A stretch of DNA of 23,949 bases, from the IMG/VR virus record IMGVR_UViG_3300030406_004733, positions 1 through 23,949 of that record, one strand, 5' to 3'. The position numbers and the translations under genes were made by a program. Position 1 is the stretch's first letter; every line of letters begins with the position of its first letter. A model generated the notes under the pieces. It had not been told where the DNA came from, ran no database searches, and was given only the letters and a program-made list of their open reading frames with translations. This document shows, piece after piece, positions 1-6,186 of the stretch. This DNA comes from a virus.

Positions 1-30
1 AATTATGCGGAGTACGTTTGGGTAAAGTAG
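1..30 (+). CDS. Possible C-terminal end of an upstream gene (partial)
   Basis: Frame 1 reads nine sense codons (N-Y-A-E-Y-V-W-V-K) and then TAG at 28-30, which would overlap the start of queE by a few codons, as most genes here do. Frame 2 also ends early (TAA at 23-25), so the fragment could belong to either frame. Nothing about its function can be read from so short a tail. Confidence 0.2.
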   Translation, partial: NYAEYVWVK

Positions 31-761
31 CAATAGGTGAAATGTATCCTTGTCTTCAAGGCGAGGGTAAGTTCATTGGTATACCTCACTTGTTAATAAG
101 GGTTTCGGGATGTAAATTGAGATGTCAATTTGCCGAATCATTTTGTGATACTCCTTTCGCAAGTTGGGCTCCTGAAAAGGGTAAATTCACTTTAGATGAT
201 GTAAGAGATTTGTATCGAAATTATCCTCAGATAAAATACACAATGATTACAGGTGGTGGTCCTACTGCACACGCAGATTTGTTAAAACAATTATGTGATA
301 TAGCAGTCAATCAATATAATCATTATGTTACAATCGAAACAGAAGGTTCGGAGTTTGTACAAACAGATGCTCAGTTTATATCGTTATCTCCTAAATTAGC
401 TAATAGTACTCCAAGACCAGGTACAATGAATCCGTATACAGGTAAATTAGTTACTGAAGCTAATAAGAAACAACACGAGAAATGGCGTTGTAATTATGAT
501 GCTATGAAAGAATTATTAAATAGTCACGAAGACTTTCAAGTCAAGCCTGTGATATCAAATAAAAATGAATTAGAAGAATTTAAAACACTTCAAAAGATAT
601 TAAGTGTTCCTAACGATAAAGTCTATCTGATGCCTGAAGGATTGAATAGAGAACAATTACGAAGACGTAGACAATGGTTATCAGAAGTTGCAGTAGAAGA
701 AGGCTATAATTTTACAGATAGATTACATATAATAACCTATGGAGATAAACGTGGAGTATAA
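18..761 (+). CDS. queE: 7-carboxy-7-deazaguanine synthase QueE (radical SAM)
   Basis: QueE converts 6-carboxytetrahydropterin to 7-carboxy-7-deazaguanine using a 4Fe-4S cluster and SAM, the step that creates the deazapurine ring. The 247-aa product has the N-terminal LQGEG motif (13-17), the RVSGC segment leading to the cluster cysteines (C32, C36, C43), CDTPFASW at 43-50, a TGGGP motif at 78-82 in place of the usual TGGEP, and SLSPKL near 122-127. Cysteine spacing is Cx3Cx6C rather than the common Cx3Cx2C, with four extra residues before the third Cys. The TTG at 18 is the first usable start and has GGAG at 9-12, but the frame is open to the window edge, so translation could begin upstream. 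It heads the deazaguanine cluster with folE, a queD-like gene and dpdA. Family assignment is firm; exact start and activity with the altered motifs are not. Confidence 0.88.
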   Translation: MGKVAIGEMYPCLQGEGKFIGIPHLLIRVSGCKLRCQFAESFCDTPFASWAPEKGKFTLDDVRDLYRNYPQIKYTMITGGGPTAHADLLKQLCDIAVNQYNHYVTIETEGSEFVQTDAQFISLSPKLANSTPRPGTMNPYTGKLVTEANKKQHEKWRCNYDAMKELLNSHEDFQVKPVISNKNELEEFKTLQKILSVPNDKVYLMPEGLNREQLRRRRQWLSEVAVEEGYNFTDRLHIITYGDKRGV

Positions 762-762
762 T

Positions 763-978
763 ATGATAGTTGAATATATAGGTTGGTTAGGATTTGTCTT
801 AATACTCTTTGGCTACTACTATAATGCACAACAGAAAATCTTCTGTTTTTATATATGGGGCATCGGCAATATTGTTTTTCTTGCGTATGCTTTGCTTATA
901 AATGCTATGCCCCAAGTAGCTATGTCAATATTTGTATTAGGTATGAACATTTATGGTTGGAAACAATGGAGTAAATAA
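763..978 (+). CDS. Small PnuC-like membrane protein (half transporter)
   Basis: The product is a 71-aa, very hydrophobic protein with about three membrane helices. It ends in NIYGWKQW, which resembles the C-terminal segment of PnuC-type nicotinamide riboside transporters, and contains a PQ pair (MPQVAM) as in SemiSWEET/PQ-loop half transporters. I chose ATG 763 because GTGGAG lies at 751-756 with ordinary spacing; an in-frame ATG at 739 would overlap queE by 23 bases. A protein this short would have to oligomerise to form a pore. Its place directly after queE suggests a small-molecule transport role, perhaps for a nucleoside or pterin-related compound, but that is inference. It could also be an unrelated small membrane protein. 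Confidence 0.6.
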   Translation: MIVEYIGWLGFVLILFGYYYNAQQKIFCFYIWGIGNIVFLAYALLINAMPQVAMSIFVLGMNIYGWKQWSK

Positions 979-1190
979 TGAAAATTAAAGTCGAAAAGAA
1001 AATAGTAAATGACGAAGTAGTCAAAACAGAAGAGTTAGTCTTCAAATTACCTAAAGTAATAGTAGATGAATTAAAGTGGGAAGATGGTACTCTTGTAGAA
1101 TGGGAAAGAGCTTTAGATTTAGATAATGAAGATGAGACTACAATAACGGTTTTACTTAGAAATATAGATGATAAAATACTTGAGGGATAA
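978..1190 (+). CDS. Small acidic hypothetical protein, weakly AbrB-like
   Basis: This 70-aa acidic protein starts on an ATG overlapping the stop of the preceding gene (TAATG) and lies two bases before folE, so it is translated as part of the operon. Residues about 24-42 (LPKVIVDELKWEDGTLVEW) have the pattern of the SpoVT/AbrB swapped-hairpin fold: a Leu-Pro pair, a hydrophobic helix, then an acidic-Gly turn and a strand. A charged tail follows. AbrB-type domains bind DNA as dimers, yet this one has few basic residues outside the N-terminus. I do not recognise a specific family; the fold suggestion is weak. It is probably a real gene, given its spacing and codon use. Confidence 0.55.
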   Translation: MKIKVEKKIVNDEVVKTEELVFKLPKVIVDELKWEDGTLVEWERALDLDNEDETTITVLLRNIDDKILEG

Positions 1191-1192
1191 AA

Positions 1193-1816
1193 ATGCAATC
1201 AAATGGAAATAAACCTTTAACAGAAGAACAAAAACAGGATAAGATAGCACGTGCAGAACATTACTATGGTAAGTTTATGTCGTCACTTGGTTTTGAATGG
1301 GAAACAGACCCTAATGCTTCAGAGACTCCTCATCGAGTTGCTAAGGCTTGGGTAAATGATTTAGCAGAAGGTTGTTTCAATCACCCTCCTAAGATTACAG
1401 CATTTGATAATGTTGATAATTACGATGGTATGGTGTTTGAAGGTAACATACAAGTACACTCAATGTGTTCACATCATCATCTTCCTTTCTTTGGTGTAGC
1501 TCACGTTGCTTACATCGCTAAGCCTGAAGGTAAAATTATTGGTTTGAGTAAATTAAATCGTACGGTTGAGTTTTATTCACGTAGACCTCAAGTACAAGAA
1601 AATCTTACAATGCAGATACACGACCACTTAGATGAAATATTAGAAGTTCATGGTGGTATTGCAGTAATGGTAAGTGCTAAACATTTATGTGCTTGTTTAC
1701 GTGGTGTTAAACATCCTCACTCTGAAATGAAAACATCTAAAATAAGTGGTGGTTTTAAAGATGGTAAAGATGGTGTACGTCAAGAGTTTTACAACTTTGT
1801 TAAGGATATGAAGTGA
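1193..1816 (+). CDS. folE: GTP cyclohydrolase I (FolE)
   Basis: FolE hydrolyses GTP to 7,8-dihydroneopterin triphosphate, the first step toward both folate and 7-deazaguanines. The 207-aa length is normal for the family. The zinc site is visible: C92, H94 and H95 in SMCSHHHLPFFG (90-101) and C166 in HLCACLRGVKHP (164-175), matching the Cys-His-Cys ligands of the E. coli enzyme. The GLSKLNRTVEFYSRRPQVQE block at 117-136 is diagnostic. The residue after the first Cys is Ser, where the E. coli enzyme has Glu. The gene overlaps the following methyltransferase by four bases (GTGA). Next to queE, a queD-like gene and dpdA, its likely job is supplying the pterin precursor for modified phage DNA rather than folate. 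Confidence 0.95.
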   Translation: MQSNGNKPLTEEQKQDKIARAEHYYGKFMSSLGFEWETDPNASETPHRVAKAWVNDLAEGCFNHPPKITAFDNVDNYDGMVFEGNIQVHSMCSHHHLPFFGVAHVAYIAKPEGKIIGLSKLNRTVEFYSRRPQVQENLTMQIHDHLDEILEVHGGIAVMVSAKHLCACLRGVKHPHSEMKTSKISGGFKDGKDGVRQEFYNFVKDMK

Positions 1817-2343
1817 AATTAATTTCAGAAGAATATAAAACAATATTACAAAAACTTCACTTATCAGGAAAATGGGGAAATGAATCTGTAAAACCTTGGA
1901 TGTTAGAAATTATTGAAAGACATATAGAAGAATATAACATATCTAACATATTAGATTATGGTTCAGGATATCCTGGTTTGAAATCTGTACTTGGTGAAAG
2001 ATATAATGTAACAGAATATGACCAAGGTATTGAAAGTAAAAGTAAAACTCCTAAACCCCAAGAATATGTAGTTTGTGTAGATGTGTTAGAACATATAGAA
2101 CCTGAATTTATAGATAATGTTTTAGATGATTTAAAACGTGTTGTTACGAATGTAGGTTTTTTTACTATCTCTTGTAGAGAAGCACTTATGATATTATCTG
2201 ATGGGAGAAATGCACATTTGATACAAAAGCCACGTGAATGGTGGAAAGAAAAATTATTAAAAAGATTTAACGTAATTGAAGAAACTTATATTGAAAGAGG
2301 AAAAGAACAATTACGAGTACTTGTAGAACGTAAGGAGAAATAA
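1813..2343 (+). CDS. Class I SAM-dependent methyltransferase
   Basis: The 176-aa protein shows the Rossmann-type SAM-binding pattern: motif I ILDYGSGYPG (46-55), an acidic residue after strand 2 (D70), and a motif IV region VCVDVLEHIEPE (87-98), followed by GFFTIS and the block HLIQKPREWW (135-144). This arrangement recurs in phage methyltransferases of unknown substrate. No DNA-methylase catalytic motif (DPPY/NPPY or a PC motif) is present, so it is unlikely to methylate adenine or cytosine directly. Start is GTG 1813, overlapping the folE stop. Lying between folE and the queD-like gene, it may methylate the deazaguanine base or a pathway intermediate; that is inferred from position only. 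A cell-wall or small-molecule substrate is equally possible. Confidence 0.78.
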   Translation: MKLISEEYKTILQKLHLSGKWGNESVKPWMLEIIERHIEEYNISNILDYGSGYPGLKSVLGERYNVTEYDQGIESKSKTPKPQEYVVCVDVLEHIEPEFIDNVLDDLKRVVTNVGFFTISCREALMILSDGRNAHLIQKPREWWKEKLLKRFNVIEETYIERGKEQLRVLVERKEK

Positions 2344-2690
2344 TGCAAACAAATATAATAGTAAAATTACAAGTAGAAGGCACTCATAATTGGCCCGATG
2401 CAACTGATGGTGCTGGTGCAGAGATGCACTACTTAGAATACAGACATAGGCATATGTTTCACATTGTAGCTAAAAAAGAAGTTATGCACGATGACCGAGA
2501 TGTTGAATTTATAATGTTCAAAAGAAAAATACATAGATATTTGAGAGAAATGTATTATACATCTGATTTAGATTTATGTGATTTTGGTTCTCAATCTTGT
2601 GAAATGATTGCTGAAGAATTGTATAACGAATTTGATTTATGTTATTGTGCTGTTTATGAAGATAATGAAAATGGAGCTGAGGTATATTAA
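2343..2690 (+). CDS. QueD / 6-pyruvoyl-tetrahydropterin synthase-like protein
   Basis: The 115-aa product has the size and layout of QueD, which turns dihydroneopterin triphosphate into 6-carboxytetrahydropterin. H15 in VEGTHNW and the pair H35 and H37 in YRHRHMF match the three zinc histidines of the family (His16, His31 and His33 in E. coli QueD). SCEMIAEEL at 85-93 corresponds to the PTxENxA helix, and EDNENGAEV near 106-114 to the C-terminal glutamate segment. The catalytic Cys expected four residues before the first zinc His of the HxH pair is Leu31 here. Proteins of this HRH type occur in phages, often unannotated. Placement between folE and dpdA supports a pterin or deazaguanine role, but the missing Cys means the reaction may differ. 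No gene symbol is assigned for that reason. Confidence 0.62.
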   Translation: MQTNIIVKLQVEGTHNWPDATDGAGAEMHYLEYRHRHMFHIVAKKEVMHDDRDVEFIMFKRKIHRYLREMYYTSDLDLCDFGSQSCEMIAEELYNEFDLCYCAVYEDNENGAEVY

Positions 2691-3142
2691 TGAAAAAATT
2701 TATTAGTTGGGAAGAAATAGATACACTTGTTGATAGTTTATCAGCACAGATAATTTTAGATTGTAAAAAGAATGGAACTACTCCTAAAGAAAGATATAAA
2801 GGTATTTATGCGTTACAACGTGGCGGTTTGATACCTGGTGTTATGTTGAGCCATAGATTAGATATACCTATGATAGATAGATTACAATCTTATTATGGAA
2901 GAGAATTTTTAATAATAGATGATATTGCAGATACAGGAGAAACACTATCTCATATGAGAGCTGAAGTTTTCAGAACGGCTCGTACTGCAACACTTCATTA
3001 TCATAGACAATCAAAAGTTGTTCCTAATTTTTGGGTAGATGAAAAAGGTGATGATTGGATTGTTTATCCTTGGGAAAAAAGTGATAGTGAAGAAATACAA
3101 GATTACTTGAAGGAGAAAAAAAATGAAGCTGTTCTTAGTTGA
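2690..3142 (+). CDS. Purine phosphoribosyltransferase (xanthine/guanine type)
   Basis: Type I phosphoribosyltransferases join a purine base to PRPP, giving a nucleoside monophosphate. The 150-aa length fits the XGPRT/HGPRT group. The PRPP-binding signature is clear at 73-86 (FLIIDDIADTGETL), the RGG loop at 44-46 precedes LIPGVMLSHRL, and WIVYPWE at 123-129 matches the WxxxPW element of xanthine-guanine enzymes that contacts the base. The gene overlaps the next by 20 bases. In this cluster it could recycle the guanine that DpdA releases from DNA, or activate a deazapurine. Substrate choice is inferred from family and context. Confidence 0.82.
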   Translation: MKKFISWEEIDTLVDSLSAQIILDCKKNGTTPKERYKGIYALQRGGLIPGVMLSHRLDIPMIDRLQSYYGREFLIIDDIADTGETLSHMRAEVFRTARTATLHYHRQSKVVPNFWVDEKGDDWIVYPWEKSDSEEIQDYLKEKKNEAVLS

Positions 3143-4154
3143 ATTAGAACCTATTGAAAAAAGATATACTAAACAATGGCACAAATGGATACCTGATTTA
3201 GTAAAAAAATATAAACCTAATTTAGAGTTTGAAATAGTATCAGGTAAATCTGATGGTGAAATTAAATCAGGAGAATTTCTTGATATAAATAGAACACAAA
3301 TCTATAAGAGTGAACAAATTATAGAAATGGCAAAATTATTTGAAGATGGTAAAGTAAGTGATGGTGATGCCTTTTTATTCTATGATGGTTGGCATTATGG
3401 TATACAAGCTCTACGATATATGGCACAATGTCAAGATATTGATGTAAAGATATATGGTATATGGCACGCAGGTACTTATGATGAGTGGGATTTATTAGCA
3501 CAAAAAGGTCTTGGATATTGGGGTGCTAACTTTGAACGTTCTTTATTTGAAGCAACTGATGGTGTATTTGTAGCTACTAATTTTCATAAAGAACTTATAT
3601 CATATGAAAGGCAAGTCCCTAAAGATAAAATACATATAACAGGTCATCCCTTTACACACTCGTGGATTAAAAATTACGATACATCTAAAAAAGAAAACAT
3701 AATAGTATTTCCACATAGAAAGGCTCCTGAAAAAAGGTTAGATGTCTTTTTAGAAATAAAAAAGAAAATGAAAGATAAAGGTTATAAATTTATTGTAACT
3801 ACTGATGAAACAAAAACAAAACAAGAATATTATGAATTACTTGCAAAATCAAAAGTTAGTTGGTCAGGAGGTCTACAAGAGACTTGTGGTATTTCTACGT
3901 TTGAAAGTCTATGGTTAGATAACATTGTAATGGTTCCTGATAGATTATCATATAGTGAAATGTATTTTGATTCATTTAAGTATGAGCCTAATCTTGATAA
4001 AAACGTTGATGTACAATGTCAAATGATAGAATATGCAATAGAAAATTATGATGAATATATTGAAGTAATGAAAGAAAATTCAGAAGAAATAAAAAAGATT
4101 CAAGGTCCTACTGCTGTTGAGAGAATGTTGAATCATATATTGGAGGTAAAATGA
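3123..4154 (+). CDS. GT-B fold glycosyltransferase
   Basis: This 343-aa cytosolic protein has no signal peptide or membrane helix. The C-terminal half follows the GT-B/family 4 pattern: IHITGHPF near 170, a strand IIVFPHRKAPEKRL that often opens the nucleotide-sugar domain, then GGLQETCGISTFESLWLDN around 248-267, resembling the E-x-x-G-x-x-x-x-E nucleotide-sugar motif, followed by a VMVPDRLSYSEMY segment. The N-terminal domain is not recognisable in detail. It starts at ATG 3123 behind GGAG, inside the end of the phosphoribosyltransferase gene, and its stop overlaps dpdA. Phage glycosyltransferases commonly decorate hypermodified DNA bases; position immediately before dpdA makes that the leading idea here. 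The sugar donor and acceptor cannot be read from sequence. Confidence 0.75.
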   Translation: MKLFLVELEPIEKRYTKQWHKWIPDLVKKYKPNLEFEIVSGKSDGEIKSGEFLDINRTQIYKSEQIIEMAKLFEDGKVSDGDAFLFYDGWHYGIQALRYMAQCQDIDVKIYGIWHAGTYDEWDLLAQKGLGYWGANFERSLFEATDGVFVATNFHKELISYERQVPKDKIHITGHPFTHSWIKNYDTSKKENIIVFPHRKAPEKRLDVFLEIKKKMKDKGYKFIVTTDETKTKQEYYELLAKSKVSWSGGLQETCGISTFESLWLDNIVMVPDRLSYSEMYFDSFKYEPNLDKNVDVQCQMIEYAIENYDEYIEVMKENSEEIKKIQGPTAVERMLNHILEVK

Positions 4155-5377
4155 GTACTTGGTTTAACAGAAAAATAAGTAAGTTCAAATACTTTCCTTC
4201 CTTTTCGGCAGGTGAGTTTGGACATGGTCTATATAAAAATCACAAATTTAGAGATGAATTAACGTGTAGATTTTATACAGAAGAATTTCCTGAAGAATTT
4301 AGATATACAGAATTTTTAATAACGGCAGGAGCTCACTATAGAAATATGAATTTTTATAATGAGATGGGTTTTAAAAAAGATGTTAATTTAGTAATGGGTG
4401 ATTCGGGTGGTTATCAGTTGGCAACAGGAGCTAATAAATGGAAAGATGGTATGAAAGAACAAACTTTCGAATGGTTAGAAAATAATTCTGATATTGCTAT
4501 GAATCTTGATATTCCTCCAAGAAGAACATTTGAAGGTAAATTTAAAGAATGTTTTGATTTCTCAATGGAAAACTTTAAATACTTTAATGAAAAACAATCA
4601 GGTCAAACTGCATTTTTAAATGTATTACAGGGTGAAGATGATGCTACGTATAAACAATGGTATGATGCTTGTAGTGGTTTTGACTTTCAAGGTTGGTCTG
4701 TAGGTGGTACTGCAGGTGATATCTATCGTTTTATGGCAAGTATATGTACTTTGTTAGAAGGTAGAGAACACGAGAAGAAAGCTAATAAGTATCTTCACAT
4801 ACTTGGTACAACACGTATTCACGATATGTTTATGTTATTACAATTACAGAAGTCACTTGAAGAAGTTGGTTCGGATATTTGTGTAACAACAGATTCGTCT
4901 ACTCCTGATAGAGCAACCGTATTTGGTTTATATTACATTGGTTTTGCATTTAAGAATCTTGGCTTTGAAGCTATCAATATGCCAAGAGAAAAACATCTTG
5001 AAGGTATGAGTGATATGGTTCAAGAGTTAAAAACAAAAAACTTAATTGGTGTAAATAACTTTGATAGATTCATAATGAAATATGCTAATATGGATGATAT
5101 TGCTGAATGGAATTGGGACGGACAATTTAGAATGAGATTACATAATTTCTATTTGTTTCTTGATGCTATTGAAATGATTGAACAAAGTGTATTTTCGTTA
5201 GAACATAGTTTAGAACAATTACTTAAAAAAGACTTATATCAAGTTGTTAGGTCTATCGATGAAATGGTTAAATCTGATGACCCTCGTAGAGTCTTTGAAA
5301 AATATAAAGCACTATACAATAGAGTTTCAAGTGTTAAGAAAAGTATAGTAGTAAAAGAAAATAATTTTATTCAATAG
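4151..5377 (+). CDS. dpdA: DpdA-type DNA 7-deazaguanine transglycosylase (TGT paralog)
   Basis: DpdA proteins are TGT relatives that exchange guanine in DNA for a 7-deazaguanine. TGT landmarks appear in order along 408 aa: DSGGYQ at 84-89 (active-site Asp), NLDIPP at 118-123, LNVLQG at 156-161 (TGT has FxIVQGG), GWSVGG at 181-186 (substrate-pocket GG), YLHILGT at 214-220, and VTTDSSTPDRA at 245-255, where Asp248 sits at the place of the TGT nucleophile. The C-terminal CxCxxC...H zinc site of bacterial tRNA TGT is absent, as is typical of DpdA, and the C-terminal third is instead helical and phage-specific. With queE, folE and a queD-like gene upstream this is very unlikely to be a tRNA enzyme. 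Starts at an ATGA overlap with the glycosyltransferase. Confidence 0.87.
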   Translation: MSTWFNRKISKFKYFPSFSAGEFGHGLYKNHKFRDELTCRFYTEEFPEEFRYTEFLITAGAHYRNMNFYNEMGFKKDVNLVMGDSGGYQLATGANKWKDGMKEQTFEWLENNSDIAMNLDIPPRRTFEGKFKECFDFSMENFKYFNEKQSGQTAFLNVLQGEDDATYKQWYDACSGFDFQGWSVGGTAGDIYRFMASICTLLEGREHEKKANKYLHILGTTRIHDMFMLLQLQKSLEEVGSDICVTTDSSTPDRATVFGLYYIGFAFKNLGFEAINMPREKHLEGMSDMVQELKTKNLIGVNNFDRFIMKYANMDDIAEWNWDGQFRMRLHNFYLFLDAIEMIEQSVFSLEHSLEQLLKKDLYQVVRSIDEMVKSDDPRRVFEKYKALYNRVSSVKKSIVVKENNFIQ

Positions 5378-5385
5378 GAGAACAA

Positions 5386-6186
5386 ATGAAATTAACGGTA
5401 GAACAACTACAAGAACGTATGCAGTACATTCGTGACCACATTGAATCTTTCAATACGGAAGAACGTGCTGCTAAGTTAAATAAAATGTATGACCACTTTG
5501 AAGAACGTATGATGTTAGCTCCGGCTTCATCTACTGACCATTTTCACAACTCGTGGCCCGGTGGTTACATTGACCACGTTATGAATATAACTGAAGCAGG
5601 TAAAAAACTATTTGAACTTTATAATGACTTTGGTTTCAATCTATCTTATGAATTAGATTCTGTTGTATTTTGTACAATGCATCACGATTTAGGAAAACTT
5701 GGTAGTCTTGATGAAGATTATTACAGACCTAATCCTTCTGAATGGCATAGAATAAATCAAGGTAAAATGTATGAAGTCAATCCTAATCTACACAATATGA
5801 CCGTAACTGATAGAGCAGTTTATACTTTAAGTCAGTTTGGTGTTACATATTCTGAAGAAGAGTATTTAGGATTAAGACTTGCAGATGGTATGTATGAAGA
5901 AGGTAATAAACCTTATCTTATGGGTTTTGGTGAAGCAAAAAAGATAAAATCAAATATTGCTCAATTAGTTCATCAAGCTGATATGATTGCAACACGATTT
6001 GAAATGGAACGTTATATGTTTGGTGAAGATGCTAATATACCATATGCTAAAATATTAGGTGTTGAAGTCGAACAATCTGTTGAAGAAAACGTAGAAGAAG
6101 TAGTTGAGACTAAAAAGAAAAAACCTAATGTAGATAAAGATTACAAAAATCAATTATTTGAAGATTTATTTGGAGATAAAAAATGA
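5386..6186 (+). CDS. HD-domain phosphohydrolase
   Basis: The 266-aa protein has the metal-binding residues of the HD superfamily: H64 in GGYIDHV, the H100-D101 pair in TMHHDLGK (97-104) and D199 in VHQADM (195-200). These enzymes hydrolyse phosphoesters, often nucleotides. Residues after about 225 form an acidic then lysine-rich linker and a short helix that look like an added tail. It has its own ribosome site (AGGAG at 5376-5380, shared with the dpdA stop) and overlaps the next gene (ATGA). Similar HD proteins are frequent in T4-like marine phages. A nucleotide-pool role beside the modification genes is plausible but not shown. Confidence 0.8.
   Translation: MKLTVEQLQERMQYIRDHIESFNTEERAAKLNKMYDHFEERMMLAPASSTDHFHNSWPGGYIDHVMNITEAGKKLFELYNDFGFNLSYELDSVVFCTMHHDLGKLGSLDEDYYRPNPSEWHRINQGKMYEVNPNLHNMTVTDRAVYTLSQFGVTYSEEEYLGLRLADGMYEEGNKPYLMGFGEAKKIKSNIAQLVHQADMIATRFEMERYMFGEDANIPYAKILGVEVEQSVEENVEEVVETKKKKPNVDKDYKNQLFEDLFGDKK

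Follow-up and report, generated by a model that had tools for sequence, protein, structure and literature searches.

Can a phage carry through a 7-deazaguanine modification of its DNA without QueC, and how would the base then be finished? The question is raised by a run of genes at the left end of IMG/VR virus record IMGVR_UViG_3300030406_004733, an uncultivated virus whose whole record of 23,949 bases is the window of this study. A preliminary description had read this run as a phage 7-deazaguanine DNA-modification cluster with QueE, FolE, a QueD-like protein and DpdA, extended by an interleaved phosphoribosyltransferase (PRT), glycosyltransferase (GT) and methyltransferase. Open reading frame (ORF) calls and family matches place the named genes where it had put them, all on the plus strand, co-oriented and overlapping or abutting, and the QueE, FolE and DpdA2-related DpdA proteins support its general reading. 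What it overlooked is that QueC is absent and that the QueD-like protein, here called QueDl, is a distinct enzyme in QueC's place.

We propose, at a probability of roughly 0.55 for the reading as a whole, that the window encodes a QueC-free phage 7-deazaguanine DNA modification that ends in glycosylation. The observations behind this proposal are the gene content, the folds and motifs of the proteins, the mutual exclusion of QueC and QueDl, and the pairing of QueDl with GT.

QueDl and QueC across related loci

The model of the window QueDl (pLDDT 95) adopts the QueD fold, and its top match among solved structures is E. coli QueD (4ntk; E 1.3e-5, TM 0.71). Across 50 family members (alignment A5) the zinc-binding histidine triad H15/H35/H37 is invariant, and so is Leu31, which both the alignment and hhalign against E. 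coli QueD place where QueD has its catalytic cysteine (CxxxHGH). Because this cysteine is missing, QueDl was not classed as QueD; the earlier label "QueD-like" therefore holds for the fold and the zinc histidines, not for the enzyme. PF01242 gave no match in the window protein, and searches of PDB sequences with the first small DpdA and QueDl profiles, and later with a deeper QueDl profile, returned nothing useful. Since a separate canonical QueD is encoded in 17 of 18 QueDl records, QueDl must act at another step, and it is probably an additional T-fold enzyme whose step follows that of QueE, at the point otherwise served by QueC.

Relatives of the locus were gathered by profile and sequence searches with DpdA, QueDl, PRT, methyltransferase and GT, and their ORFs were called and scored with profiles built in this analysis. 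This gave 173 non-identical locus groups, 119 of which have a core gene (QueE, QueD or FolE). QueC occurs in 50 of the 173 groups and QueDl in 83, and no group has both (Fisher's p 1.7e-24 in the 119 core-gene groups, a value uncorrected for descent). QueC (PF06508) is absent from the window genes, and it was found above the cut-off in none of 32 whole related records, nearly all of them QueDl carriers and six of them complete genomes of isolated phages, in a search that did detect it in control genomes. Conversely, QueDl was found in none of 28 QueC records, and a QueDl profile does detect known carriers. The isolated phages Paride (a Pseudomonas phage), ACP17 (an Acidovorax phage), X1, Phosso and BUCT-ZZ01 (a Synechococcus phage), which have both QueDl and GT, lack QueC throughout their genomes. 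QueDl takes the place of QueC.

Xanthomonas phage X1 also encodes a PAPS-reductase-family ATP pyrophosphatase beside FolE (L174:5840-6373), which has no QueC match and might be a QueC substitute. The QueDl family itself (PHROG 17812) is widespread and unannotated; viral contigs contain more than 560 stretches that match it.

The glycosyltransferase and its pairing with QueDl

The model of the window GT (pLDDT 91) has a GT-B fold that matches MshA (3c4q; E 2.5e-10, Z 26.0 across 317 residues). The protein carries E253-x7-E261 and the phosphate-binding pair R199-x4-K204, and the (E/D)x7E motif is kept by 87 of 88 family members. On this basis it is predicted to be a GT4-type enzyme of the retaining kind.

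The partner of this enzyme is QueDl: GT is present in 52 of the 83 QueDl groups versus none of the 50 QueC groups, and when only groups with a core gene are counted it lies beside QueDl in 44 of 62 versus a single case among the 57 without QueDl. The GT gene often overlaps that of QueDl, while in the window it shares a 4-base overlap with the DpdA gene. The order of the genes is DpdA-GT-QueDl in Paride and ACP17, GT-DpdA-QueDl in X1, DpdA-QueDl-GT in BUCT-ZZ01 and QueDl-GT in Sinorhizobium phage Phosso, so that the pairing persists across different arrangements in isolated phages. Only 5 loci were retrieved with the window GT as sole query; its specificity was judged from the loci found by way of DpdA, QueDl and PRT.

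A gene set that could supply such an enzyme with its donor is found in L015:5223-7019, where QueDl and GT are separated by genes for a HAD protein, a cupin, and a split-HldE-like kinase and nucleotidyltransferase corresponding to the halves of E. coli HldE, with 26% and 38% identity; judged by these similarities, this is what a phage would be expected to need in order to prepare an activated sugar. In L140:3244-10349 and L175:7358-11515, QueDl and DpdA have two or three GT4-type genes around them, and the products of these genes could build an oligosaccharide.

The enzyme might instead glycosylate 5-hydroxymethyl-cytosine or -uracil in the manner of T4, or decorate sugars of the host or virion surface, and such uses are common among T4-like phages; cyanophage clusters of nucleotide-sugar and GT genes have been interpreted as outer-polysaccharide genes (PMC7824862). 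However, PF00303 (thymidylate synthase/dCMP-dUMP hydroxymethylase) was not detected in 23 of the 32 records, among them the nearest long relative (L003, 126 kb), the 97-kb contig L015, ACP17, X1 and BUCT-ZZ01, and a T4-type hydroxymethyl-pyrimidine acceptor is therefore unlikely in those phages. Moreover, unrelated phages have the GT gene embedded in their deazaguanine clusters, and its occurrence follows that of QueDl. We regard either of these uses as improbable.

Still less probable is a glycosylated pterin made by FolE, QueDl and GT in place of a DNA base. QueDl does have a pterin-synthase fold, and a tetrahydrobiopterin glucosyltransferase (9v0l; E 7e-8, Z 22.3) is among the structural matches of GT, but bacterial GT4 enzymes with other acceptors (MshA, BshA) score equally well or better, and the same clusters encode QueE, canonical QueD and DpdA, of which QueE and DpdA would not be needed for a pterin.

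Some points weigh against the proposal. In about one third of the QueDl loci, no gene of these GT families lies closer than about 9 kb, and QueDl alone therefore does not imply glycosylation. A simple decarboxylation of 7-carboxy-7-deazaguanine (CDG) by QueDl would leave no obvious hydroxyl to accept a sugar. A tree of DpdA with 54 rows does support the direction of the association, since the state changes at least 4 times for QueDl, 3 times for GT and 5 times for QueC and the direction is as expected wherever both states differ; however, only 3 phylogenetically independent pairs result, with which a sign test has no power and reaches no significance.

Many of the loci without GT contain another DpdA-like protein, resembling tRNA-guanine transglycosylase (TGT), together with a P-loop kinase and a dCTP-deaminase/dUTPase-like protein (L096:8505-10634, L109, L114, L132, L166 and others). 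The short TGT-like protein of these loci has a DNGAFE motif, recognised by eye, and is possibly another transglycosylase subfamily, and a second TGT-like family matches phrog_887 ("queuine tRNA-ribosyltransferase", E 7.5e-18). It seems that QueDl opens a QueC-free branch which is finished differently in different phages.

Such loci would also suit another explanation. QueC-free phage modifications, namely dCDG and dDG, have reportedly been described by Cui et al. in 2023 together with a predicted CDG decarboxylase, DpdL, and QueDl may be DpdL. In that case, the DNA base would be plain 7-deazaguanine (dDG) or CDG, and GT, as a mere neighbour, would act on something else. QueDl in the position of QueC would be expected, as would its occurrence without GT in Cellulophaga phage phiST (which has a kinase), in MA9V-3 and in other loci. 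This explanation does not account for the tie of GT to QueDl, the absence of GT from all 50 QueC groups and the 4-base overlap of the DpdA and GT genes in the window, and we consider it unlikely, though the strongest of the alternatives.

Base exchange, guanine salvage and neighbouring genes

The candidate enzyme for base exchange in the DNA is DpdA. A profile of 24 relatives of the window protein matches DpdA2 of Vibrio phage nt-1 (YP_008125322; E 1.3e-35), from which DpdA2 was defined by Hutinet et al. 2019 (PMC6884629), and does not match DpdA1 of 9g and CAjan. The TGT family PF01702 is matched by 11 of the 24 members, only weakly by the window protein itself; a wider profile (A7) reaches Zymomonas TGT (E 4e-4), and hhalign against E. 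coli Tgt gave a weak match. The motif DSGGxQ, D120, H216 and D248 are invariant in the 24 proteins. As described earlier, the window protein has DSGGYQ (D84-Q89) and TTDSS, which holds D248, and lacks the TGT zinc motif CxCxxC...H, its five cysteines being scattered. In the alignment the D84 motif corresponds to DSGGFQ of TGT, and D248 to the aspartate of the TGT FDC motif, which is the TGT nucleophile. The missing zinc site, a hallmark of TGT, counts against a plain tRNA TGT and not against DpdA. The protein is best called DpdA2-related by its sequence, and by analogy with its family it would exchange bases in DNA.

These features also bear on whether the genes might raise queuosine in host tRNA, or supply its precursors, and leave the DNA unmodified, as proposed for pathway phages without DpdA (Hutinet et al. 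2019, PMC6884629). Here, a DpdA of the DpdA2 kind is present, with the catalytic aspartate and DSGGxQ; in 6E351A, a phage grouped with nt-1, 15% of dG is modified (PMC12028318); and QueC, which queuosine requires, is missing. Such a role is accordingly very doubtful. Deazaguanine has been found in the DNA of both nt-1 and 6E351A (PMC12028318), and a deazaguanine system has been noted in PA5oct (PMC7824862).

The window QueE deserves comment. Its iron-sulphur motif is CX3CX6C (CKLRCQFAESFC) in place of the radical S-adenosylmethionine (SAM) motif CX3CX2C, which it lacks, and its match to TIGR03365 lies below the cut-off. CX3CX6C is the commonest spacing among its relatives (44 counted), others having CX3CX7C, CX3CX10C or CX3CX11C, and different spacing exists within QueE (TIGR04508, Cx14CxxC). 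Because profiles match over the whole length, the protein was named QueE-like despite the spacing.

The three enzymes by which the preliminary description extended the pathway, and whose co-occurrence beside DpdA homologs it suggested examining, fared differently. GT stood up to that check, being found beside DpdA homologs, and is the steady partner described above. PRT is also a regular companion, as 71 of its 84 groups are deazaguanine clusters, but it is equally at home in QueC clusters that have no GT (45 groups with QueC, 20 with QueDl); base tailoring by PRT was for this reason set aside as the leading idea. The protein shows 29% identity to E. coli Gpt (E 8e-17), matches xanthine-guanine phosphoribosyltransferase structures in the PDB, and carries the phosphoribosyl pyrophosphate (PRPP) motif and the purine loop WIxxPW, both of which are present in 63 of 71 members. 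TGT exchange releases one guanine per swap. As DpdA would by analogy free one guanine per exchange, the simplest role for PRT is to recycle this guanine to GMP, and its likeness to xanthine-guanine phosphoribosyltransferase, together with its presence beside QueC and QueDl alike, makes guanine salvage likelier than tailoring of the base.

The methyltransferase is inconsistent: among DpdA loci it is confined to the window and an L006-type sub-clade, and its remaining relatives are found in loci that have no core deazaguanine genes. It was therefore rejected as a general core tailoring step, although a role on the sugar or the deazaguanine is possible. One distant relative (L281:8035-12226) is accompanied by a YhhQ-like transporter (PF02592), a 2-oxoglutarate (2OG)-oxygenase-like protein, a DAHP/KDO8P-synthase-family protein and a CTP-transferase, which suggests a cluster for precursor import and a Kdo-type sugar.

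The genes of the locus are listed in Table 1. Nine of them, mostly abutting or with short overlaps, fill positions 18-5377. The cluster had been drawn to 6186, but its last gene, for an HD-type protein, adjoins DpdA and a sigma factor gene in both QueC and QueDl clusters and probably belongs to the neighbouring late-gene block with the late sigma factor, not to the pathway. The source is a marine T4-like phage, and T4-like late and structural genes lie further downstream. Close relatives have the order QueD-QueE-PnuC-FolE-(methyltransferase)-QueDl-PRT-GT-DpdA-HD-sigma, some with extra genes interspersed; as content and order are kept, the window cluster is not a product of chance. Canonical QueD, directly upstream of QueE in these relatives, is not in the window, whose record begins at QueE and probably covers only part of a larger phage genome.

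Table 1. Genes at the left end of the window, with the family matches on which their names rest
Gene product	Position	Strand	Remarks
QueE-like radical SAM enzyme (7-carboxy-7-deazaguanine synthase family)	18-761	+	TTG start; phrog_2076, E 4.9e-38
79-aa membrane protein, half of a PnuC/nicotinamide mononucleotide (NMN)-transporter-like protein	739-978	+	PF04973, E 4e-5, below cut-off
70-aa ORF	978-1190	+	phrog_661, E 1.3e-5
FolE, GTP cyclohydrolase I	1193-1816	+	PF01227, E 4.2e-49
Small SAM-methyltransferase-like protein	1813-2343	+	phrog_24759, E 1.6e-18
QueDl, QueD-fold paralog	2343-2690	+	phrog_17812 (unknown function); no Pfam matches
PRT, xanthine/guanine phosphoribosyltransferase-like	2690-3142	+	PF00156, E 4e-9
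GT, predicted GT4-type glycosyltransferase	3123-4154	+	PF00534, E 0.009
DpdA, predicted DNA-guanine transglycosylase related to DpdA2	4151-5377	+	PF01702, E 6e-4
HD-type phosphohydrolase-like protein, 266 aa	5386-6186	+	phrog_28876, E 1.4e-12

The half-length PnuC-like protein is kept beside QueE in many relatives and may serve in the uptake of a precursor. HNH endonuclease-like genes are inserted in the cluster or fused to its genes at L003:4835-5434, L015:3143-4486 and L172:8461-9342 (the fusion in L172 being judged by eye), and are likely homing elements. A protein of 263 or 283 aa, absent from the window, is encoded between QueDl and PRT at L003:5778-6569 and L006:5604-6455; the idea that it is a 2OG-Fe(II) oxygenase came from an HxD...H..R pattern seen by eye and was abandoned, as neither Pfam nor PHROGs supported it.

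The proposed pathway and known systems

In the QueC-free, glycosylating pathway that we favour, FolE, QueD (presumably encoded beyond the left end of the record) and QueE would, like other members of their families, convert GTP to CDG. QueDl, which keeps its zinc site, would then act on CDG in place of QueC, most likely removing or replacing the carboxyl group, and its product would be exchanged for guanine in the phage DNA by the DpdA2-like transglycosylase. The enzyme of GT4 type may transfer the sugar of a nucleotide-sugar onto the base, either in DNA or just before insertion, and PRT would recycle the freed guanine with PRPP to GMP, feeding GTP back to FolE. The modification would presumably protect the phage DNA against restriction.

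A wider proposal is more tentative, and we give it somewhat less than an even chance: several phage lineages may have swapped QueC for QueDl and a GT4 enzyme and may carry a glycosylated 7-deazaguanine, a new QueC-free class of DNA base, some of them perhaps with an ADP-heptose-type sugar or with additional sugars. The literature searched, the coverage of which was incomplete, contained no account of glycosylated deazaguanine in the DNA of phages. To our knowledge, the glycosylated bases of phage DNA are pyrimidines; if the proposal is true, a sugar-bearing purine would join the known phage DNA bases, the widespread QueDl family would gain a function, and a simple genomic rule, QueC or QueDl, would predict the modification. 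If guanine salvage is coupled to base exchange, it would become clear how phages can afford to replace many guanines. Since isolated phages growing on common hosts carry both QueDl and GT, the prediction is directly testable.

Several known systems resemble parts of this pathway. The window GT resembles the GT4 enzymes MshA and BshA in its fold, the EX7E motif and the phosphate-binding Arg/Lys pair, but the identity is about 10-13%, and a different acceptor is expected. PRT shares the purine loop, the PRPP motif and its overall similarity with E. coli Gpt, from which it differs by the loss of about 20 residues ahead of the PRPP motif.

In animal tRNA, mannosyl- and galactosyl-queuosine are formed by QTMAN and QTGAL. 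As we propose for the phage, a sugar is there placed on a 7-deazaguanine derivative after its exchange into a nucleic acid; however, the nucleic acid is tRNA, the acceptor is a cyclopentenediol and the enzymes are eukaryotic, and no match of QTMAN to the window GT was seen. The alpha- and beta-glucosylation of 5-hydroxymethylcytosine in T4 offers another parallel, with a glycosylated phage base (proposed here), GT-B enzymes, T4-like phages and a likely anti-restriction role. The T4 base differs in being a pyrimidine, which dCMP hydroxymethylase produces ahead of replication; no member of this enzyme family was found in those of the nearest long relatives that were searched.

The closest counterparts are deazaguanine systems of phages. 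The QueC-free scheme reported by Cui et al. 2023 likewise dispenses with QueC and expects a further step from CDG; unlike the window, it is not known to include a glycosyltransferase. With the DpdA2 systems of nt-1 and 6E351A (PMC6884629, PMC12028318) the window shares FolE, QueE, QueD (in its relatives), a DpdA2-related transglycosylase and a T4-like phage background. In contrast to nt-1, which has QueC, the window carries QueDl and a GT4-type enzyme instead, with PRT added.

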